Of a stretch of 64,000 nucleotides of DNA, positions 12,498-26,791 are shown piece by piece. Source of the DNA: Streptomyces sp. Q6 (GTDB lineage Bacteria; Actinomycetota; Actinomycetes; Streptomycetales; Streptomycetaceae); the NCBI RefSeq assembly GCF_036967205.1, contig NZ_CP146022.1, forward strand, positions 1,860,001-1,924,000. Reading direction: 5' to 3'. The notes beneath the pieces were generated by a model that was given only the letters and a program-made list of their open reading frames with translations, did no database searches and had not been told where the DNA came from. Every line of letters begins with the position of its first letter. Positions within the stretch are counted from its first letter, which is position 1. A program made the position numbers and the translations under genes.

Positions 12498-12845
12498 ATG
12501 GCGACGACGGAGGAGTGCCGCACGGCACTCGAGAGACTCTCGGACAACATGGCGGGCGCGAACGGCGACGTCCAGGCCGCCGCTGCCCTCGACCGCTCTC
12601 TGAGCTGCCGCATCACGGACCTGGACGTGACGTTCTCCGGCCGTCTCGAGAACGGCCGGATCAAGGTGCTCGACACCCGCCCGGGTCCGCCCGCGCAGAA
12701 GGCGCAGATCCGGCTGGCGATGACGGGCGACGACCTGGTGGCGATGGTGGACGGGCAGCTGAACTTCGCCCGCGCCTGGGCCTCGGGCCGGGTCAAGCTG
12801 GAGGCGTCGTTCCGCGATCTGCTGCGCCTCAGGACGCTGCTGTAG
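12498..12845 (+). CDS. SCP2 sterol-binding domain-like protein
   Basis: A 115-residue cytoplasmic protein that resembles the SCP2/sterol carrier fold, a small alpha/beta pocket that binds hydrophobic ligands. The pattern TDLDVTFSGRLENGRIKVLD, then IRLAMTGDDLVAMVDGQLNF and AWASGRVKLEASFRDLLRLR, follows the typical beta-sheet and the G-x-x-K helix of SCP2 proteins. The ATG at 12498 is chosen because homologous structure begins here and it is only 42 bp from the divergent small acidic protein gene. Its 3' end overlaps the convergent siderophore ATPase gene by 17 bp. The ligand is unknown. Confidence 0.72.
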   Translation: MATTEECRTALERLSDNMAGANGDVQAAAALDRSLSCRITDLDVTFSGRLENGRIKVLDTRPGPPAQKAQIRLAMTGDDLVAMVDGQLNFARAWASGRVKLEASFRDLLRLRTLL

Positions 12846-13647
12846 TCACCGTCTCCTTGCGCCGCGCCTTGCGCGCCGCGGGCACCACCAGCGGAGTCCC
12901 CGTCTCCGGGTCGTCGATGACCTGGCACTTCATGCCGAACAGCCGCTCGACGAGCTCGGCGGTCACGATGTCCTTGGGCGCCCCCTCGGCGATGACCGCA
13001 CCGTCGCGCAGCGCGATGAGGTGGGTCGCGTACCGGGCGGCGTGGTTGAGGTCGTGCAGGACGGCGACGAGCGTGCGCCCCTGTTCCTCGTGGAGTTCGG
13101 CGCAGAGGTCGAGGACGTCGATCTGGTGCTGGATGTCGAGGTACGTCGTCGGCTCGTCGAGGAGCAGCAGCGGCGTCTGCTGGGCGAGCGCCATCGCGAT
13201 CCACACGCGCTGGCGCTGACCGCCGGAGAGCTCGTCGACGTACCGGTCGGCGAGTTCGGCGACGCCGGTCGACTCCATGGACTCCCGTACGACCGCCTCG
13301 TCCTCCGGCGACCACTGGCGCAGCAGACCCTGGTGCGGGTAGCGGCCGCGGGCGACGAGGTCGCCGACGGTGATGCCGTCGGGCGCGACCGACGACTGCG
13401 GCAGCAGGCCGAGCGTCTTGGCGACCTTCTTGGCGGGCATGGAGTGGATGACGCCGCCGTCGAGGAGCACGCGGCCCGCGCTCGGCTTCAGCATCCGCGA
13501 CAGGGCGCGCAGGAGCGTGGACTTGCCGCAGGCGTTCGGGCCGACGATGACCGTGAAGGAGTTGTCGGGGATCTCGACCGACAGCTTCTCGGCGATGACG
13601 CGCTGGTCGTAGCCGAGGGTCACGTCGTCGGCTATCAGCCTGTTCAC
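12829..13647 (-). CDS. Iron-siderophore ABC transporter ATP-binding protein
   Basis: A 272-residue ATPase of the FecE/FhuC type that powers ferric siderophore import. It has Walker A GPNACGKST, the Q-loop LLPQSSVAPDG, signature LSGGQRQRVWIAMALAQQ, Walker B LLLLDEPTTYLD and H-loop VLHDLNHAARYA. I chose GTG at 13647 because AAAGGAG lies 7 nt upstream. An alternative ATG at 13698 would overlap the stop of the permease gene in an ATGA arrangement and add 17 residues; translational coupling makes that possible too. It is the last gene of a three-gene operon with the two FecCD permeases, so iron repression through the box upstream of the first gene should apply. Confidence 0.93.
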   Translation of the reverse strand: MNRLIADDVTLGYDQRVIAEKLSVEIPDNSFTVIVGPNACGKSTLLRALSRMLKPSAGRVLLDGGVIHSMPAKKVAKTLGLLPQSSVAPDGITVGDLVARGRYPHQGLLRQWSPEDEAVVRESMESTGVAELADRYVDELSGGQRQRVWIAMALAQQTPLLLLDEPTTYLDIQHQIDVLDLCAELHEEQGRTLVAVLHDLNHAARYATHLIALRDGAVIAEGAPKDIVTAELVERLFGMKCQVIDDPETGTPLVVPAARKARRKETVTTAAS

Positions 13648-13694
13648 AGCGGGGCTCCTTTGGTTCGTACGAGGGTCATGAGGGCCGCGGGCGG

Positions 13695-14732
13695 TCATAT
13701 CCGGCCCGCCTTGCGCTCGGTGACCAGCAGCCACAGCAGATAGACACCGCCGATGACACCCGTCACGACGCCGACGGGCAGCTGGTCGGCGCCGAAGGCC
13801 CGCTGCGAGGCCAGGTCCGCGACGATCAGCAGGGTCGCGCCCAGCCAGGTCGCGGCGATCAGGTTCGGGCCGGGCGACTTCGTCAGGCGCCGGGCGATCT
13901 GCGGGGCGGTGAGCGCCACGAAGCTGACGGGTCCGGCCGCGGCGGTCGCGGCGGCCGACAGGAAGACGGAGGCGACGAGCAGCAGCAGGCGGGTCCGTTC
14001 GACGCGGATGCCGAGCCCGCCCGCCGCGTCGTCGCCCATCTCCAGCATGCGCAGCGGACGCGCGTACACGGCGACGAGGGGGATGACGACGAGGAAGAGG
14101 ACCAGCAGCGGCCAGACCTGGGTCCAGTCGCGCCCGTCGAGCGAGCCGGTCATCCACACGGTGGCGCGGGCCGCGTCCACGAAGTCGGCCTTGGTGAGCA
14201 GATAGCCGTTGATGGCGGTCATGAACGCGGAGACGCCGATGCCGACGAGGACGAGTCGGTAGCCGTGCACGCCCCGCTTCCAGGCGAGCAGGTAGATCGC
14301 GAAGCCGGTGACGAGTCCGCCGACGAGCGCGCCGAGCGCGACCTGCGTGGCGCTGCCGCCGACGAGCACGATCATCGCCAGGGCGCCCGCGGTCGAGCCC
14401 TGCCCGAGCCCGAGCACGTCCGGGCTGCCCAGCGGATTGCGGGAGATGGACTGGAAGAGCGCGCCGGACAGGCCGAGCGCGCCGCCGACCAGGAGGCCGA
14501 CGAGGACCCGCGGCAGCCGCAGGTCGTTGATGATGAACTCCTGCCCGGGGTCGCCCTGGCCGGCCAGGGTGCGCAGCACGTCCATGGCCGGGATCGGGAA
14601 GTCGCCGGTGCCGATGAGCACGACGCTCGCGACGAGCGCGGCCACGACGAAGACCGCGACGACGACGGCCGAGCGGACGTCGAGCCGTACGGAGATTCCG
14701 CCCGGGGTGCGGACGGCCTTGGTGGTCTTCAC
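13695..14732 (-). CDS. FecCD family iron-siderophore permease (second subunit)
   Basis: A 345-residue permease subunit with about 10 transmembrane helices. It carries the FecCD hallmarks DLRLPRVLVGLLVGGALGLS, NPLGSPDVLGLGQGS and, near the C-terminus, AAAGPVSFVALTAPQIARRL, which includes the EAA-like contact loop for the ATPase. The start is GTG at 14732; its GTGA overlaps the stop of the upstream permease gene, indicating translational coupling and a fixed stoichiometry of the two subunits. Together with the partner permease and the ATPase it forms a ferric siderophore importer in the cytoplasmic membrane. Confidence 0.93.
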   Translation of the reverse strand: MKTTKAVRTPGGISVRLDVRSAVVVAVFVVAALVASVVLIGTGDFPIPAMDVLRTLAGQGDPGQEFIINDLRLPRVLVGLLVGGALGLSGALFQSISRNPLGSPDVLGLGQGSTAGALAMIVLVGGSATQVALGALVGGLVTGFAIYLLAWKRGVHGYRLVLVGIGVSAFMTAINGYLLTKADFVDAARATVWMTGSLDGRDWTQVWPLLVLFLVVIPLVAVYARPLRMLEMGDDAAGGLGIRVERTRLLLLVASVFLSAAATAAAGPVSFVALTAPQIARRLTKSPGPNLIAATWLGATLLIVADLASQRAFGADQLPVGVVTGVIGGVYLLWLLVTERKAGRI

Positions 14733-15775
14733 AGCTGGGCCAGCCTCCGGCGTCGTACGAGAAGGATGAAGACCGGCGCTCCGATGATCGCGGTGACGAT
14801 GCCGACCTGGAGTTCGGCCGGGCGGGCCACGAGCCGGCCGACGACGTCGGCGCCGAGCAGCAGCACCGGCGAGAGGACCGCCGCGTACGGCAGGATCCAG
14901 CGCATGTCGGGGCCGGTGAACGAGCGGACGATGTGCGGCACCATCAGGCCGACGAAGACGATGGGCCCGCAGGCCGCGGTGGCCGCGCCGCACAGCAGGG
15001 TCGCGGCGGCCATGCTCAGGGCGCGGGTGCGGTTGAGGTGGGCACCGAGCGCGCGGGCGGTGTCGTCGCCCATGGCCATCGCGTTGAGCGGCCGGGCGAG
15101 ACCGAGGGCCAGCACCGCGCCCACGGCGATGAACGGCAGGACCTGCTGGATCGTGTCCATCTTGGCGGAGGCCAGCGAGCCGACCTGCCAGAAACGCATC
15201 CGGTTCAGCGCGACGTCGTCGGTGATCATGACGGCGTAGAGGTAGCCGGAGAGCGCCGCGGTGATCGCGGTTCCGGCGAGCGCGAGCCGCACCGGCGTCG
15301 CGTTGCGCGTGCCGCCCAGGACGTACACGAGGACGCCGACGGCGGCGGAGCCGAGGAACGCGAACCAGACGTAGCCGCTGAGCGAGGTCACCCCGAAGAA
15401 GCTGATGGCGGTGACGACGGCGGCGGAGGCACCCATGTTGAGGCCGAGGATGCCGGGGTCGGCGAGCGGGTTGCGGGTCAGTGCCTGGAGCACGGCGCCG
15501 GCGAGGCCGAGCGCGAGTCCGGCGAGGAGCCCGAGCAGGGTCCGGGAGACCCGCTCCCCCACGACGATGTCGGCGTACCGGCCGGTGTCGTGGAAGAGGC
15601 CGTGCCAGACCTGGTCCAGGGACAGCGGTTTGGCGCCGATGGCGATGCTCAGGACGAGCATGACCAGCAGCACGAGAGCCGAGGCGAGGAGCCCGGCGCC
15701 GCGTATCGCCGCACGACGGCCGGGGGGCGCGGGAGCGGTCTCCGCGCCGGCTTCTGGGGGACTGTCGACCAACAC
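14729..15775 (-). CDS. FecCD family iron-siderophore permease (first subunit)
   Basis: A 348-residue permease with an N-terminal cytoplasmic extension of about 25 residues and roughly 10 hydrophobic helices. Conserved blocks include RTLLGLLAGLALGLAGAVLQ, NPLADPGILGLNMGASAAVV and CGPIVFVGLMVPHIVRSFTG. It is the promoter-proximal gene of the uptake operon. The assigned GTG at 15775 lies only 4 bp from a DtxR-type iron box, with GGAGGG about 17-20 nt upstream, so the transcript may have a very short leader and the box must overlap the promoter. No substrate-binding protein gene is present next to it; that component is probably encoded elsewhere. Confidence 0.92.
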   Translation of the reverse strand: MLVDSPPEAGAETAPAPPGRRAAIRGAGLLASALVLLVMLVLSIAIGAKPLSLDQVWHGLFHDTGRYADIVVGERVSRTLLGLLAGLALGLAGAVLQALTRNPLADPGILGLNMGASAAVVTAISFFGVTSLSGYVWFAFLGSAAVGVLVYVLGGTRNATPVRLALAGTAITAALSGYLYAVMITDDVALNRMRFWQVGSLASAKMDTIQQVLPFIAVGAVLALGLARPLNAMAMGDDTARALGAHLNRTRALSMAAATLLCGAATAACGPIVFVGLMVPHIVRSFTGPDMRWILPYAAVLSPVLLLGADVVGRLVARPAELQVGIVTAIIGAPVFILLVRRRRLAQL

Positions 15776-15779
15776 GAGG

Positions 15780-15798
15780 TTAGGTTAGCCTACCCTCC
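15780..15798. promoter_or_regulatory. Iron box (DtxR/DmdR-type operator)
   Basis: The 19-mer TTAGGTTAGCCTACCCTCC matches the palindromic DtxR/IdeR/DmdR consensus (TTAGGTTAGSCTAACCTAA) at 16 of 19 positions. It sits between the siderophore permease operon on the minus strand and the siderophore-interacting protein gene on the plus strand. In actinobacteria such boxes are bound by Fe2+-loaded DmdR/IdeR repressors. It therefore probably represses the uptake operon in iron sufficiency, and may also control the divergent flavoprotein 175 bp away. Confidence 0.85.
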
Positions 15799-15972
15799 AA
15801 ATCAGCTACATCCCGCTGCGCCGAAGGACCCCGGGAACCCCGAGGCTACCTGGGCGAAGCCGCCCGCCTTCCGCGCGGGCCGGGGCCGTGCCCCGGTCCC
15901 GCGTGGCCCGGTTCAGCCCTGCCGGAGCCCCCCGACTCCTGCCCGCACCGATCACCGCAAGAGGCCCACGCC

Positions 15973-16851
15973 ATGACCGAGACGGCCACACCGGCATCTC
16001 CCGCCACGACCGACGCACCACCCTTCGACCTCTTCGCCCTCGACGTCGTACGGGCCCTGCGCCTCACCCCGAACATGGTGCGGGTCGACTTCACCGGCCC
16101 CGACCTCGCCCGGATGGCGTCGGCCGGCCGCGACCAGCGCGTCAAACTGTTCCTGCCGGCCCCGGGCCGGTCCACCCCGCACCTCCCGGACACCTCCGAC
16201 GGCCAGTGGTACCCGGCCTGGCTCGCCCTCGACCCGGCGACCCGCGGCGTCATGCGCACGTACACGATCCGCGAACTGCGCGCCGCCCCGGCCGAGTTGA
16301 CCGTCGACTTCGCGGTCCACGGCGAGGAGGGGCCGGCCTCTCGCTGGGCCCTGCACGCCCGCCCCGGCGATCGCGTCGGCGTCCTGGCCCCGGTCGTCGA
16401 GGAGAACGCCGCCTACGAGTTCCGCCCACCGGCCGACACCGACTGGGTCCTGCTGGCCGCGGACGCCTCGGCGCTCCCGGCCCTCGCGGCCGTCCTGGAA
16501 CACCTGCCGCCGTCGGTCCCGGTCCGCGCCTGGATCGAGGTCCCCGAGGCGGCGGACCGCCAGGCCCTGCCGACCGGCACGGACACCGAGATCACCTGGC
16601 TGACCGCCCCCGGCAGCACGGTCGCGGCGATCGCGGCCGCGCCGCTGCCCGAGGGCACTCCGTACGCCTTCGTCGCGGGTGAGGCGTCCACGGTGAAGGC
16701 CGTCCGCCGCCACCTGGTGACGGACCGCTCCTTCGACCGCACGCGTGTGAAGTTCTCGGGCTACTGGCGCAAGGGCGCGTCGGAGGACCACCTCCTCCAG
16801 GCCGCCGAGGAGGCGGACAAGGGGGAGAAGGCGGAGGCGGAGGCGGCCTGA
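15973..16851 (+). CDS. Siderophore-interacting protein (ViuB/SIP-type ferric reductase)
   Basis: A 292-residue NAD(P)H-flavin oxidoreductase-like protein of the SIP family. The FAD-binding motif MRTYTIRE (the R-x-Y-T signature) falls near residue 95, preceded by the beta-barrel segment NMVRVDFTGPDL. The C-terminal SIP domain has LLAADASALPALAAVLEHL, FVAGEASTVKAVRRHL and FSGYWRKGASEDH, all typical. Such proteins reduce Fe3+ in imported siderophores to release Fe2+ in the cytoplasm. It is divergent from the siderophore permease operon across an iron box, consistent with one iron-uptake regulon. The C-terminal tail is a Glu/Ala/Lys-rich extension. Confidence 0.94.
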   Translation: MTETATPASPATTDAPPFDLFALDVVRALRLTPNMVRVDFTGPDLARMASAGRDQRVKLFLPAPGRSTPHLPDTSDGQWYPAWLALDPATRGVMRTYTIRELRAAPAELTVDFAVHGEEGPASRWALHARPGDRVGVLAPVVEENAAYEFRPPADTDWVLLAADASALPALAAVLEHLPPSVPVRAWIEVPEAADRQALPTGTDTEITWLTAPGSTVAAIAAAPLPEGTPYAFVAGEASTVKAVRRHLVTDRSFDRTRVKFSGYWRKGASEDHLLQAAEEADKGEKAEAEAA

Positions 16852-16859
16852 GGGACGGC

Positions 16860-16923
16860 CGGGTGGGCGCGGCGGGCGCTACAGCCCCAGCCGGGTGGGC
16901 GCGGCGGGTGCTACAGCCCCAGC
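16860..16923. repeat. Tandem duplication of 32 bp at the 3' end of the HAD phosphatase gene
   Basis: Two adjacent 32-bp units (16860-16891 and 16892-16923) differ at a single base. The second unit includes the TAG stop and last codons of the minus-strand HAD gene; the first is a downstream copy of the same segment. It lies in the 59-bp gap after the siderophore-interacting protein gene and looks like a recent slippage or unequal-crossover event with no effect on either protein. Confidence 0.9.
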
Positions 16924-17966
16924 CGCGCCAGCGCCTTGGCCGAGTCCAGCTCGCACGCCCCGTCGCCCGCAGCCGTCCAGGCCGCCGCGCACAACGCCCG
17001 CAGTCCGTCGATCGCTTCTCCGTCCCCCTCCAGTTCGAGCCGCGCGTCGCCGGCGACCGCGGTCCAGCCTCCGCACCGGAAACCCTCGCCGGCCTCCCCC
17101 GTCACCTCGGGCTGCCCGGTCAGCAGGCCGCGCAGATCCACATCCACGTACGTCGGCCGGTGCTGCGGCGGCGCGGCGAGCAGCTGCGCCCCGTCGGTCA
17201 CCCCGGTCAGTACGAGCAGCGAATCCACTTCCCCGTTGAACGCCCCCTCGATGTCGGTGTCGAGCCGGTCCCCCACCACGAGCGGCGTCTTCGCGCCGGT
17301 CCGCAGGACGGTCTCCCGGTGCATCGGCGGCAGCGGCTTCCCCGCGACCTGCGGCTCCGCGCCCGTCGCGATCCGGACGACCTCGACCGCCGCCCCGTTC
17401 CCCGGCGCGATGCCGCGCGCGCTGGGGATCGTCAGATCGGTGTTGGACGCGAACCACGGCACCCCGCGCGCGATCGCGTAGCAGGCCTCGGCGAACCGCT
17501 TCCATGCCAGGTCGGGTCCCCCGTACCCCTGCGCGACGGCCGCCGGGTCGTCGTCGGCGGAGTCCACGGGAACCAGCCCGCGCTCGCGCAGAGCGACCTG
17601 CAACCCTTCCCCGCCGATCACCAGCACCCGCGCGCCCTCGGGCACTTGCTCGCTGATGAGCCGGGCGACGGCCTGCGCGGACGTGATGACGTCCCCCGCC
17701 TCCGTCGGGATCCCCAGCTCCGTCAGGTGCTCGGCGACGGTGTCGGGCGTCCGCAGCGCGTTGTTGGTCACGTAGGCGAGCCCCATCCCGCCGTCTCTGG
17801 CCTCGGCCAGCGAGTCGACGGCGTGCGCGATGGCCTGCCCGCCCGCGTACACCACCCCGTCCAGATCGAGCAGCGCCGTGTCGTAGGCCTCGCTCAGCGC
17901 CCGCTCGCTGCCCTGCGGCCGCACCCGGGAACCGTCGCCGGCCGCACCCCTCGCACTCTGGCTCAT
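16911..17966 (-). CDS. HAD superfamily (NagD-like) sugar/nucleotide phosphatase
   Basis: A 351-residue HAD hydrolase of subclass IIA. Motif I is DLDGVVYAGGQAI near residue 33, motif II is VTNNALRTPDT, and the C-terminal VVGDRLDTDIEGAFN supplies the Lys/Asp Mg2+-binding part (with GKPLPPMHRETV carrying the Lys). The cap insertion between motifs is of the C2 type. NagD-like enzymes dephosphorylate nucleotides or sugar phosphates; the physiological substrate here is unknown. ATG 17966 is chosen because GAGGAG lies 9-10 nt upstream; a further 24 codons are open upstream but unsupported. It is divergent from the DUF1015 gene. A 32-bp tandem repeat overlaps its last codons. Confidence 0.9.
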   Translation of the reverse strand: MSQSARGAAGDGSRVRPQGSERALSEAYDTALLDLDGVVYAGGQAIAHAVDSLAEARDGGMGLAYVTNNALRTPDTVAEHLTELGIPTEAGDVITSAQAVARLISEQVPEGARVLVIGGEGLQVALRERGLVPVDSADDDPAAVAQGYGGPDLAWKRFAEACYAIARGVPWFASNTDLTIPSARGIAPGNGAAVEVVRIATGAEPQVAGKPLPPMHRETVLRTGAKTPLVVGDRLDTDIEGAFNGEVDSLLVLTGVTDGAQLLAAPPQHRPTYVDVDLRGLLTGQPEVTGEAGEGFRCGGWTAVAGDARLELEGDGEAIDGLRALCAAAWTAAGDGACELDSAKALARLGL

Positions 17967-18037
17967 TACGTATCGCTCCTCGCTCGGTCCACTCCCCCGA
18001 TCATCCCCCACGCCACTGACACTCGTACGATGCACCA

Positions 18038-19312
18038 ATGAACACTGCAGGTGACGGCCTGGATCTGGTCCCCTTCCGGGGGGTGCGCTACGTCCCGGAA
18101 CGGGTCGGCAGCCTCGCCGCCGTGACCTCGCCCCCGTACGACGTCGTCGTGCGGCCCGACGGCCTGCTCCACCTGGAGAGCGCCGACCCGTACAACATCG
18201 TCCGGCTGATCCTGCCGCAGGCCACGTCCCCGCGGTCGCGCAACGACCAGGCGGCCTCGACGCTCCACCGCTGGCTCGCCGAGGGCGTCCTCGCCGCGGA
18301 CCCCACGCCGGCGCTCTACGTGTACGAGCAGCGCAGCGGCGACATGCTCCAGCGCGGCGTCATCGGCGCCCTCCGCCTGTCGGAGGCGTCGGAGGGTGTG
18401 GTGCTGCCCCACGAGGACGTCATGCCCCATGTGGTCGAGGACCGCGCGGGCCTGATGCGCACCACGGAAGCGAACTTCGAACCGCTCCTCCTCACCTATC
18501 GCGGCAACGGCGCCGCGACGGGCGCCACGGCCGTCATCGAGCACGCCGTCCACCGGCCCCCGATCCTCGCCACGACCACCGAGGACGGCTACAGCCACCG
18601 CCTCTGGTCGATCACGGACGCGGCGGAGCAGCGGCAGATCCGCGAGGACCTGGCCGCTCATCAGGCCCTGATCGCGGACGGCCACCACCGCTGGGCGACG
18701 TATCTGCAGCTGCGCACCGAGCACCCGTCGCCCACCCCGTGGGACTACGGCCTGGTCCTCCTGGTCGACACGGCCCGCTACCCGCTGCGCGTCCGCGCCA
18801 TCCACCGCCTCCTGAACCGCCTCCCGATCGAGCAGGCCCTGGCGACGGCCCGTGTGTCCTTCCGCGTACGAGAAGTCGCCGGGCCGCTCGACCGAGCGCT
18901 GGAAGCGCTGGCGGAGGCGGCGGCACACGGCAACGCCTTCCTCCTGACCGGCGCCGACGACACGTACCACCTGCTCGACCGCCCGGACGCCGCTCTCCTG
19001 GACCGTACGATCCCGACGGACCGCCCCGAGGCCTGGCGCACCCTGGACGCGACCGTCCTGCACTCGACGCTCCTCGGCCATGTCTGGGGCATCCCCGAGG
19101 ACTCCCCGGCGGACATCACGTACATCCACGACACGGCGGCGACGGTCGAGAAGGCCCGCCGTGACGGCAGTACCGCGGTCCTGATGCACCCGGTCCGCGA
19201 GGAAGTCGTCCGCGAGCTGGCCCGGCAGGGCGTGACGATGCCCCGGAAGTCGACGTCCTTCGGTCCGAAGCCGGCCACGGGCCTGGTCCTGCGCACCCTC
19301 ACCGACGACTGA
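18038..19312 (+). CDS. DUF1015 family protein
   Basis: A 424-residue soluble protein of the DUF1015 family (SpoIIGA/SerC-like naming aside, no proven function). The N-terminal block LVPFRGVRYVPERVG, then VTSPPYDVV, and the central IADGHHRWATYLQLR are the family's most conserved segments; the DGHHR motif resembles a metal or phosphate site. The C-terminal half ends with STSFGPKPATGLVLR, also a family signature. The ATG at 18038 begins directly at the conserved N-terminus. It is divergent from the HAD phosphatase gene with a 71-bp gap and ends at a hairpin terminator shared with the convergent repeat-rich protein gene. Confidence 0.9.
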   Translation: MNTAGDGLDLVPFRGVRYVPERVGSLAAVTSPPYDVVVRPDGLLHLESADPYNIVRLILPQATSPRSRNDQAASTLHRWLAEGVLAADPTPALYVYEQRSGDMLQRGVIGALRLSEASEGVVLPHEDVMPHVVEDRAGLMRTTEANFEPLLLTYRGNGAATGATAVIEHAVHRPPILATTTEDGYSHRLWSITDAAEQRQIREDLAAHQALIADGHHRWATYLQLRTEHPSPTPWDYGLVLLVDTARYPLRVRAIHRLLNRLPIEQALATARVSFRVREVAGPLDRALEALAEAAAHGNAFLLTGADDTYHLLDRPDAALLDRTIPTDRPEAWRTLDATVLHSTLLGHVWGIPEDSPADITYIHDTAATVEKARRDGSTAVLMHPVREEVVRELARQGVTMPRKSTSFGPKPATGLVLRTLTDD

Positions 19313-19362: not shown

Positions 19363-21444
19363 TTACCGCTCGCCGCGCTCCTCGCCGTCGTCCTCGTCCT
19401 GCTCGCGATCGACAACCACGACATCATCACTGTCGCTGTCGCTGTCGCTGTCGCCGTCGCTGTCGTCCTCGTCGAACGCGTCGACGAACTCGACGCCGTC
19501 CAGCTCGGCGAGCCGGTCGGACGCGTCGGTGCTGCCGTCCTTGTCGGACTCCACGGCCTTGGCGAACCACTCGCGGGCCTCGTCCTCACGCCCGGCCGCC
19601 AGCAGCGCGTCGGCGTACGCGTACCGCAGGCGCGCGGTCCACGACTGGACGGAGTGGGAGGCGAGCTCGGGGCTCTGGAGCGTCACGATGGCGGCGTCCA
19701 GCTGCCCCATGTCCCGCCGAGCACCGGCGGCGACGAGCCGCATCTCGACCTGTCCGGCCTTGTCGAGCTTCTGCACCTCAGGCGCACCGGCCATGTCGAG
19801 CGCCCGCTCCGGCCGCCCGAGACCGCGCTCGCAGTCGGCCATGACGGGCCACAGCTCGACGTTCCCGGTCATCCGACGCGCGGCCCGGAACTCCGCGAGC
19901 GCCTCGCTGTACTTCTGGTTCGCGTACGCGGCGAAGCCGGCGGCCTCGCGCACGGCGGCGACGCGGGACGCGAGCCGCAGAGCGACCTTGGAGTACCCGT
20001 AGGCCTCCCGGGGGTCCTCGTCGATCAGCCGGGCGACCATCACCAGGTTCTTGGCGACGTCCTCGGCAAGCCCCTTCGGCAGGGACTGGAGCTCCTGCTG
20101 CACGTCCTTGTCGAGCTCGTAACCCGAGACGTCCTCGGGGATCGGCAGCCGCTTGATCGGCTCACGGTCCCGCTCGTCGCGGAACCGGCCACCGCCACCG
20201 CGCCGGTCGTCACCACGTCGGTCGTCCCGGCGGTCGTCGCGACGGAAGGGCGGACGGTCGCCGTCCCGGCGCGGCCCACGATCCCGGTCACGGTCACCGT
20301 ACGAAGGCCGATCGTCGCGCCCACGGAACCCGCCACCAGCGCTGCCACCACGGTTGTCGTCACGACGATCCCCGCGGTAACCGCCACCGCCACCACGGTT
20401 GTCGTCCCGCCCGCGATAGCCGCCACTGCTGCCGCCACGGTTGTCATCGCGGCGGTCGTCGCGACGGAACGGGGGACGGTCGCCGTCACGGCGCGGCCCA
20501 CGATCCCGATCGCGGTCACCGTACGAAGGCCGATCGTCGCGCCCACGGAACCCGCCACCAGCGCTGCCACCACGGTTGTCGTCACGACGATCCCCGCGGT
20601 AACCGCCACCGCTACCACCACGGCTGTCATCGCGACGGAAGCCACCACCGCTGCTACCACCGCGGTCATCACGCCGGTCGTCCCGACGGTCGTCACGGCG
20701 GAAGGGCGGACGGTCGCCGTCACGGCGCGGCCCACGATCCCGATCGCGGTCACCGTACGAAGGCCGATCGTCGCGCCCACGGAACCCGCCACCAGCACTG
20801 CCACCACGGCTGTCGTCACGACGATCCCCGCGGTAACCGCCACCGCCACCACCACGGCTGTCATCGCGACGGAAACCACCGCCACCACTACCACCGCGAT
20901 TGTCGTCACGACGGAATCCGCCACCGCCACCACCGCGATTGTCATCGCGACGGAAACCACCACCGCTGCTACCACCGCGGTCATCACGCCGGTCGTCCCG
21001 ACGGTCGTCGCGACGGAACGGGGGACGGTCGCCGTCACGGCGCGGCCCACGATCCCGGTCACGGTCACCGTACGAAGGCCGGTCGTCGCGCCCACGGAAC
21101 CCGCCACCAGCACTGCCACCACGGCTGTCGTCACGACGATCCCCGCGGTAACCGCCACCGCCACCACCACGGCTGTCATCGCGACGGAAACCACCGCCAC
21201 CACTACCACCGCGGCTGTCGTCACGACGGAAACCACCGCCGCTGCTACCGCCCCGGTTGTCGTCTCGACGGTCGTCACGGCGGAAGGGCGGACGGTCGCC
21301 GTCACGGCGCGGCCCACGATCCCGGTCGCTGGACGACGGACGGTCGCGGCGCGGGCCGTCGCCACCGCGGTACCCGCCGCGGTCACCACTGTCCCGGCGG
21401 CGCTGGTCGCGCTCCGGACGCTCGTCGGGAGAGTTGGTGGACAT
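19363..21444 (-). CDS. Repeat-rich Arg/Asp/Gly (RGG-like) protein with C-terminal TPR-like domain
   Basis: A 693-residue protein in two parts. Residues about 20-427 are low complexity: tandem modules built from FRRDDSRGGSGGG and YRGDRRDDSRGG elements, interrupted by four copies of a longer unit starting FRGRDDRPSYGDRDRDRGPR and ending in PPFRRDDRRDD (near residues 116, 221, 299 and 373). This resembles the RGG/RD-rich disordered regions of RNA-binding proteins. Residues about 430-660 are helical with TPR-like repeats (EAYGYSKVALRLASRVAAVR, YSEALAEFRAARRM, DEAREWFAKAVESD). The tail is highly acidic with a Ser-Asp run and ends in DDGEERGER. ATG 21444 has GGAGT upstream. The gene starts about 75 bp after the rRNA operon terminator. 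TPR-like proteins with variable N-terminal repeats occur in other streptomycetes; I know no established function. RNA or ribosome-related binding is inference. Confidence 0.82.
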   Translation of the reverse strand: MSTNSPDERPERDQRRRDSGDRGGYRGGDGPRRDRPSSSDRDRGPRRDGDRPPFRRDDRRDDNRGGSSGGGFRRDDSRGGSGGGGFRRDDSRGGGGGGYRGDRRDDSRGGSAGGGFRGRDDRPSYGDRDRDRGPRRDGDRPPFRRDDRRDDRRDDRGGSSGGGFRRDDNRGGGGGGFRRDDNRGGSGGGGFRRDDSRGGGGGGYRGDRRDDSRGGSAGGGFRGRDDRPSYGDRDRDRGPRRDGDRPPFRRDDRRDDRRDDRGGSSGGGFRRDDSRGGSGGGYRGDRRDDNRGGSAGGGFRGRDDRPSYGDRDRDRGPRRDGDRPPFRRDDRRDDNRGGSSGGYRGRDDNRGGGGGYRGDRRDDNRGGSAGGGFRGRDDRPSYGDRDRDRGPRRDGDRPPFRRDDRRDDRRGDDRRGGGGRFRDERDREPIKRLPIPEDVSGYELDKDVQQELQSLPKGLAEDVAKNLVMVARLIDEDPREAYGYSKVALRLASRVAAVREAAGFAAYANQKYSEALAEFRAARRMTGNVELWPVMADCERGLGRPERALDMAGAPEVQKLDKAGQVEMRLVAAGARRDMGQLDAAIVTLQSPELASHSVQSWTARLRYAYADALLAAGREDEAREWFAKAVESDKDGSTDASDRLAELDGVEFVDAFDEDDSDGDSDSDSDSDDVVVVDREQDEDDGEERGER
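20163..21384. repeat. In-gene degenerate tandem repeats encoding the RGG/RD region
   Basis: About 1.2 kb of repeated DNA inside the repeat-rich protein gene. A long unit of roughly 110 bp, encoding GRDDRPSYGDRDRDRGPRRD and what follows, recurs four times with spacings near 315, 234 and 222 bp. Shorter units of about 33-45 bp encode the FRRDDxRGG and YRGDRRDD modules between them. Copies share long identical stretches, so copy number should vary between strains and assembly collapse is a risk. Confidence 0.9.
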
Positions 21445-21524
21445 GGGGTGACTCCTGTCATCGGTACCGCAGTCATTCTCACGCAGCCGGGGTGCCGGCG
21501 CGCTCCGAGAAGAGCTCTGGAAAT

Positions 21525-21572
21525 ACAAAAAGGACCCTTGGTCCCAGCATGTGTGCCGGGACCAAGGGTCCT
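21525..21572 (-). terminator. Intrinsic terminator of the rRNA operon
   Basis: A perfect 15-bp stem (21531-21545 with 21558-21572, AGGACCCTTGGTCCC) and a 12-nt loop, followed on the minus strand by TTTTTG. It lies 9 bp beyond the 5S rRNA 3' end and is a textbook rho-independent terminator. Confidence 0.95.
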
Positions 21573-21581
21573 CTCAAAAAT

Positions 21582-21701
21582 AGTTCGGCGGCGTCCTACT
21601 CTCCCACAGGGTCCCCCCTGCAGTACCATCGGCGCTGTGAGGCTTAGCTTCCGGGTTCGGAATGTAACCGGGCGTTTCCCTCACGCTATGACCACCGAAA
21701 C
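21582..21701 (-). rRNA. rrf: 5S ribosomal RNA
   Basis: The minus strand from 21701 reads GTTTCGGTGGTCATAGCG and ends near CGCCGCCGAACT, the standard streptomycete 5S rRNA of about 120 nt. It is separated from the 23S gene by about 130 bp and followed by a strong terminator. Ends are assigned by similarity and may be off by one or two bases. Confidence 0.95.
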
Positions 21702-21831
21702 CCTTTCAGACGTCCCTCAAGAGGGACCCATGAACAGGGCGGCGAACTAGCACACTTTTCAATTGATAAGTGGAACTGTTCAGCCAGCACAAACTGTTCG
21801 TTGTCTGGGAACTACACAGTGGACGCGAGCA

Positions 21832-26791
<4,960 letters not shown>

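Follow-up and report, generated by a model that had tools for sequence, protein, structure and literature searches.

What does a protein with several hundred residues of arginine, glycine, and aspartate repeats do directly behind an rRNA operon, and does its position matter? The question is raised by a gene in a 64,000-nucleotide window of the Streptomyces sp. Q6 chromosome (NCBI RefSeq assembly GCF_036967205.1, contig NZ_CP146022.1, positions 1,860,001 to 1,924,000; coordinates of window features are given in Table 1). A preliminary description of about 400 residues of Arg/Asp/Gly repeats joined to a helical-repeat domain and an acidic tail proved accurate, and if anything undersold the architecture: the protein consists of a 427-residue arm, a TPR core, and a Ser-Asp tail formed by the last 37 residues. 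We judge the chances to be about even that it is an ancient RNA-binding hub of Actinomycetota, linked to the rRNA operon and contacting RNA on the rRNA or ribosome side.

Table 1. Positions of the gene, its parts, and adjacent features in the window
Feature	Position	Strand	Evidence and remarks
HAD hydrolase, frequent downstream neighbor	16911..18038	-	Gene scans in the window and in relatives
Whole coding sequence, 693 aa plus stop	19363..21444	-	Open frame; ATG at 21444; AGGAG Shine-Dalgarno sequence before the ATG
Acidic Ser-Asp-rich tail, residues 657-693	19366..19476	-	Composition; hexamer repeat at 19430-19465
TPR core, residues 432-656	19477..20151	-	Pfam TPR_19; alignment; AlphaFold2 (AF2) pLDDT 94.6
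Disordered R/G/D-rich N-terminal arm, residues 1-427, five imperfect repeats, net charge +29	20164..21444	-	Sequence; low pLDDT
Shine-Dalgarno sequence AGGAG, seven bases 5' of the ATG	21452..21456	-	Sequence
GAGAAT, -10-like element, 30 bp 5' of the ATG	21475..21480	-	Sequence; conservation in Streptomyces
Intrinsic terminator after the 5S rRNA gene	21529..21574	-	Hairpin; shuffles
5S rRNA	21583..21699	-	Upstream, same strand as the gene
23S rRNA	21835..24957	-	Upstream, same strand as the gene
16S rRNA	25266..26791	-	Upstream, same strand as the gene

The arm is composed mainly of arginine (29%), glycine (26.5%), and aspartate (21.5%), with smaller shares of serine (7%) and phenylalanine plus tyrosine (6%), and its repeats are anchored at residues 40, 129, 234, 312, and 386. 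It contains 18 RGG, 33 RG, and 27 RDD motifs as well as 26 aromatic residues, and residues 1-439 have pLDDT values below 50 in a single-sequence, full-length model that is poor overall (mean pLDDT 38.3). Clusters of RGG and RG motifs within a disordered region define the RGG/RG RNA-binding proteins, and the arm has such clusters. The best-known eukaryotic proteins of this kind, FUS, nucleolin, and Ddx4, bind RNA and condense. The arm resembles them in being multivalent, disordered, and rich in Arg/Gly and aromatic residues, but it contains far more aspartate, is joined to a TPR body, and belongs to a protein in which a Pfam scan found no RRM, KH, or zinc finger domain. The core matches Pfam TPR_19 over the family cutoff (E = 2e-7), and its AlphaFold2 model from a 23-row alignment is helical; tandem helix-turn-helix repeats matching a TPR profile, the hallmark of the TPR superfamily, are therefore present. 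Matches listed in a PDB profile search with the core are mostly (designed) TPR proteins. In a Foldseek search against the PDB, the best 50 of 1568 matches look like generic TPR and other helical-repeat proteins, and the 17 among those listed with E values of at most 0.001 appear to be TPR or TPR-containing proteins. An NCBIfam scan of the protein gave nothing near cutoff.

Openness of the frame is by itself weak proof that the repeats are translated, because an antisense frame spans the same DNA and long frames arise easily in GC-rich repeats. That antisense frame (698 aa, 19654-21750, plus strand) runs across the repeats into the 5S rRNA gene and seems to be a side effect of coding in GC-rich repeats. 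Alignment of the repeat units over all ten unit pairs gives pS of 0.257 and pN of 0.042 (pN/pS 0.16), which shows that the units are under protein-level constraint and differ mostly at synonymous sites; we cite this test in place of one using four blocks, which had been chosen on protein identity. A comparison of the first 18 codons across Streptomyces loci gives pS of 0.19 and pN of 0.04, the latter biased low because only loci beginning MSTNSP (45 of 60) were taken. These 60 loci are what remained of 80 named loci, the closest matches listed, once 20 in which no start was found had been left out.

The architecture was initially thought unusual for bacteria, which is wrong for this phylum, as the loci examined within the class typically combine a basic arm with a TPR core. 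A single-sequence search matched 118 of 296 genomes of the phylum at E <= 0.001, and a 23-row profile of the core matched 233 of the 246 genomes sampled from the class, many of 1.3-1.5 Mb among them; six of the thirteen misses are genomes of 1.2-1.8 Mb from one family (f88). In Streptomyces sp. Q6 itself the full-length search found one copy, and the core profile counted a second, weaker match. Judged by heuristically assigned start codons, the arms of relatives range from 44 to 832 residues (leaving out locus L237, with 19), and many are shorter than 150 residues. Open-access literature, in titles and the openings of abstracts, yielded no account of an rRNA operon-linked TPR/RGG protein or of its arm.

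Linkage to the rRNA operon is similarly widespread. For the class, 68 genomes with at most six contigs were hand-picked among carriers of the gene; the selection omitted nine genomes of genus g218, each a single contig, and four low-contig genomes (G005, G009, G010, and G012), in which a 5S rRNA gene lies upstream at three loci (L023, L013, and L024) and the short flank of the fourth (L022) holds no rRNA. Of the 71 full places found, 70 were kept as loci; the one omitted, in G443, is 714 bp away from the start of its contig, and two partial matches were set aside. Within the roughly 9 kb of sequence read, 67 of the 70 loci have a 5S rRNA gene upstream in the same orientation, and no 5S or 23S match lies on the opposite strand. 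The predicted start is at most 350 bp from the end of the 5S rRNA gene in 57 loci, and the distance from 5S to core exceeds 2.6 kb in five. Among the three loci lacking a 5S rRNA gene, L209 has no rRNA, L211 sits at a contig end with 1985 bp of upstream sequence, and L241 has only the end of a 16S rRNA gene, which adjoins a gap some 9 kb upstream. These counts are not independent, given that linked loci share descent and were chosen among carriers. Outside the class, 92 matches were found, from which 20 regions were chosen; together with L061 and L063-L065, and without L256, which had no core match, they provide 23 core-hit loci. A 5S rRNA gene precedes the core on the same strand in 17 of these and a 16S rRNA gene in one more (L061); linkage was not seen in L246, L253, and L063, nor in L262 and L065, which have less than 500 bp of upstream sequence. 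To our knowledge, it is rare for a protein gene to keep its place behind rRNA operons throughout the history of a phylum.

The linkage, like the long repeats, is usual rather than obligatory. In G179 (locus L209) there is no rRNA within 9 kb upstream, and the protein has no long repeats and only a short basic arm. The preliminary description had held that TPR homologs lacking both the repeats and rRNA linkage would speak against a function in RNA or ribosome condensates; one such case exists among the genomes examined, and elsewhere linkage prevails. Both G179, which keeps the gene without an rRNA operon, and the five loci with the gene more than 2.6 kb from 5S count against the hub reading.

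The wider gene neighborhood provides a different explanation for the linkage. Upstream open reading frames were listed in nine loci and the seven tyrS-like ones were scanned, confirming tyrS upstream of the rRNA operon in six loci and also in L209, without an rRNA operon; none among the open reading frames of L201 and L202 is tyrS-like. In 47 of 70 loci a HAD hydrolase is encoded downstream in the same orientation, no more than about 4 kb away, a count that is an underestimate given the Streptomyces query, the E value threshold of 1e-10, and the short window searched. The ancestral order is likely to have been mpg-tyrS-rrn-TPR-HAD, and because the neighborhood of mpg, tyrS, and HAD is old, the rRNA linkage could be inherited and not selected. 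On this view the protein would be a cytoplasmic TPR adaptor of the ordinary kind, possibly a partner of the neighboring HAD phosphatase, in a tyrS-rrn-TPR-HAD block that rarely breaks, and its arm would have a general polyanion role. Consistent with this are the age of the block, the retention of TPR and HAD genes in G179 without an rRNA operon, and a TPR-HAD fusion in one genome. That fusion (L237 in G317, and L058) places the TPR core and the HAD hydrolase in one open frame of 615 aa with the basic arm almost absent, and it hints at a metabolic partner. Yet inherited linkage seems to us unlikely: 5S (67 of 70) is better kept than HAD (47 of 70, underestimated as noted), rRNA linkage recurs in other classes, the arm is positive in every locus counted, and in three genomes one of two rRNA-linked copies stands without a HAD gene found behind it.

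Those three genomes (G243, G385, and G540) bear on whether the gene belongs to the operon. Two 16S rRNA genes were scored in each, and each genome has two copies of the gene, one behind each rRNA operon. Between the copies, the last 1500 bp of 23S are 99.9-100% identical, the DNA from 5S to the core is 91-100% identical, and 213-215 of 215 residues of the core protein are identical; the 600 bp directly 3' of the gene are 50-54% identical, as in unrelated DNA. Because homology spans the rRNA and the gene and then ends, the gene is part of the rRNA unit in these genomes, all of genus g13, and the pattern of identity indicates that duplication or gene conversion treats rRNA and gene as one unit there. 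A HAD gene was found behind only one copy of each pair. A partial second match to the gene was also seen at a contig start in G494. More generally, 16S counts are lower bounds, as the search recovered 16S from 9 of 14 controls and from 36 of 39 sample genomes, at most seven candidates per genome were scored, and some stretches read N. With this proviso, a single 16S rRNA gene was scored in 10 of 39 genomes, and in seven of them (G518, G340, G361, G413, G539, G333, and G360) that 16S is the one the gene follows. The remaining three are G179, which is unlinked; G046, with a partial 16S and no link; and G403, where 23S and 5S precede the gene and adjoin an unreadable stretch, so that this genome has more than the one 16S scored.

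The proteins encoded at these loci share a bipolar distribution of charge. With starts assigned heuristically and without L237, whose arm has a net charge of +1, the arm is net positive (5 to 60) and the core negative in all 69 loci, and the tail is negative in 45. Arm and tail charge are inversely correlated (rho -0.72), also over the means of 15 families (rho -0.70, p 0.004). Arm sequence varies freely between lineages (for example, KRPYEKRDGAPRSYGDRDGN, GGYQRRDGDRPSGG, and RGGKPADTRGG) and composition and charge are kept, a combination that would be expected of a multivalent polyanion-binding arm.

The repeat grammar of the arm recurs in a second protein of the same genome. In the 8.95 Mb of Streptomyces sp. 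Q6, the pattern GGNTTYCGNCGNGAYGAY (GFRRDD) has 15 matches against none for the reversed control: six in the arm, eight in the C-terminal tail of one DEAD-box RNA helicase (L277, G000:C1, about 4087580-4088000), and one that is isolated and in a doubtful frame. The helicase is like the arm in its tail of GGFRRDD/RPSGDRGG repeats and unlike it in having an enzymatic core, in carrying the repeats at its C-terminus, and in being encoded elsewhere on the chromosome. The looser pattern RGGxRGG is unspecific in this genome (26 matches vs. 13 for the reversed control, most in frames that do not look coding). Ribosomal protein uS3 of the same genome (L274 in G000) has an RGG-rich C-terminal extension.

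The shared grammar raises the possibility that the protein is a putative scaffold of RNA-decay or RNA-helicase condensates similar to BR-bodies, in which the Arg/Asp polyampholyte arm would self-associate and recruit the DEAD-box helicase, the position behind the rRNA operon being incidental. The C-terminal disordered region of RNase E in BR-bodies is likewise a charged region able to organize RNA machinery; the protein studied here differs in lacking a nuclease domain and in its rRNA linkage. A Pfam scan returned TPR families and one subthreshold APC3 match and no RNase E catalytic domain, a feature expected of a BR-body or degradosome scaffold. The FRRDD/RGG grammar of the helicase tail, the 26 aromatic residues of the polyampholyte arm, and the arm-tail charge balance agree with such a scaffold, which we nevertheless consider improbable, since many relatives have arms of less than 150 residues and the phylum-wide rRNA linkage would be left unexplained. 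Covariation of arm and helicase tail within genomes was rejected: for 11 tails of at least 80 aa, selected as genuine among 30 helicase loci, the pair from the same genome ranked first in only one. This mismatch weighs against the scaffold and against the hub reading as well.

Expression of the gene could also be tied to the operon directly. The terminator hairpin has a folding energy of -42.9 kcal/mol (z -10.2 against 200 shuffles), and the preliminary description correctly placed the gene about 75 bp behind it, counting from where the T-run ends to the start codon (75-85 bp past the hairpin). The GAGAAT element is found in 34 of 45 long-spacer Streptomyces loci, 28-34 bp ahead of the start, and in none of 14 short-spacer loci, nine of which have TACAAT or TATAAT instead, adjoining the T-run in the TACAAT sequence inspected. 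A scan for the sigma-70 consensus found no promoter, and for that reason GAGAAT is only a candidate promoter element; the Streptomyces gene probably uses its own promoter. The strong terminator and the -10-like element argue against obligatory cotranscription in Streptomyces. Elsewhere the arrangement is tighter. A stem follows 5S in 56 of 57 short-gap loci, 46 of which also pass the T-richness rule (a shuffled control was made for the window terminator only), and in L201, L202, and L223 the gap from hairpin to start codon is 21-25 nt, which leaves no room for a separate promoter, so that transcription must come from read-through or from a promoter located within 5S or the hairpin.

Comparison with mycobacteria hints at a connection of the family to RNA polymerase. 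The gene order TPR, HAD, tlyA, NAD kinase on one strand is shared by the window and the M. tuberculosis unit around Rv1691, which encodes a TPR protein of unknown function; compared by gene order, the window differs in having DUF1015 and other genes inserted. Downstream of the gene it encodes DUF1015 (on the opposite strand) and the HAD hydrolase; tlyA and NAD kinase lie farther away, followed by an open reading frame that resembles RecN by its translation. At 12829-16851, in the stretch separating the HAD gene from the tlyA side, translations suggest a siderophore-uptake-like cluster of an ABC ATPase, two permeases, and a reductase-like open reading frame. In M. tuberculosis, the unit is given as lprJ-Rv1691-Rv1692-Rv1693-tlyA-ppnK-recN (PMC3072309), and mycobacterial rrnB is placed behind tyrS (PMC10218544), the same order as in L193 and L194. 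The presumed mycobacterial relatives (family f5) have arms of 44-82 aa and a tail that is not net acidic, unlike the window protein. One study, which gives MSMEG_3754 as the Rv1691 ortholog, selected it among the high-confidence proteins of a pull-down of the RNA polymerase beta subunit; its own FLAG pull-down detected no DNA, and the authors consider that it may be RNA associated or that the bound DNA was too scarce to see (PMC7092591). The complete pull-down list comprises 275 proteins, 214 of them high confidence (PMC7092591), and so is not specific. MSMEG_3754/Rv1691 also has an entry in a ClpC1 interactome table (PMC10433963).

The copurification of the M. smegmatis ortholog with RNA polymerase (PMC7092591) is compatible with the protein acting as a growth-rate sensor or attenuator, in which read-through of the rRNA terminator would yield protein in proportion to rRNA synthesis and the protein would feed back on rRNA operon transcription or RNA polymerase. 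The hairpins followed by T-rich stretches in 46 of 57 short-gap loci and the three loci with no room for a separate promoter fit this scheme, but it appears very unlikely: Streptomyces seemingly has its own promoter, elsewhere a promoter may overlap the hairpin or 5S, and terminator T-content did not follow spacer length (rho 0.17, p 0.2, 56 loci). The last result also leaves unsupported the idea that weak terminators accompany short spacers.

We return to the hub reading, which is supported by 5S linkage in and out of the class, the duplication unit, the charge pattern, and the constraint on the repeats, and also by the GFRRDD helicase tail, the uS3 RGG tail, and the RNA polymerase pull-down of MSMEG_3754. 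From these we infer RNA binding, protein partners, gating by the tail, and ribosome assembly as the process. The positively charged Arg/Gly arm would contact RNA through multivalent arginines, its target most likely being nascent or precursor rRNA or assembling subunits. The negative TPR body would dock protein partners, which may be an RNA helicase, RNA polymerase, a nuclease, or ribosomal proteins, and the acidic tail, where present, would balance or gate the arm. The position behind 5S would tie gene dose to rRNA output and, in lineages whose spacer is too short for a promoter, transcription too. Of the initial suggestion of a role in RNA or ribosome condensates, the link to RNA or ribosomes gains support from phylum-wide rRNA linkage, the duplicated unit in three genomes, and the helicase-tail grammar, whereas condensates are conjectural; the supposed rarity of the architecture does not stand for this phylum. 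A bolder formulation, which we offer tentatively and think somewhat more apt to be wrong than right, is that the rRNA operon of this phylum has a customary last gene encoding a bipolar-charge protein that acts on the adjacent rRNA, a bacterial equivalent of the RGG proteins of the nucleolus whose expression would follow that of the rRNA genes and whose gene would sometimes be copied with them when the operon duplicates. If the protein does handle rRNA, the Actinomycetota, which include antibiotic producers and some pathogens, would have an unrecognized ribosome-biogenesis or RNA-condensate factor, and the natural series of arm lengths (44 to 832 residues) would be a ready test of how disordered-region length affects bacterial RNA organization.

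The arm is also distinct from the core in codon usage. Its arginine and glycine codons favor CGT and GGT, and third-position GC in the window gene is 0.63 in the arm versus 0.94 in the core. The same holds for all 60 Streptomyces loci among the closest matches listed, in which the arm (mean 0.70) is lower than the core (0.94), a difference that may reflect selection on translation or mRNA shape.
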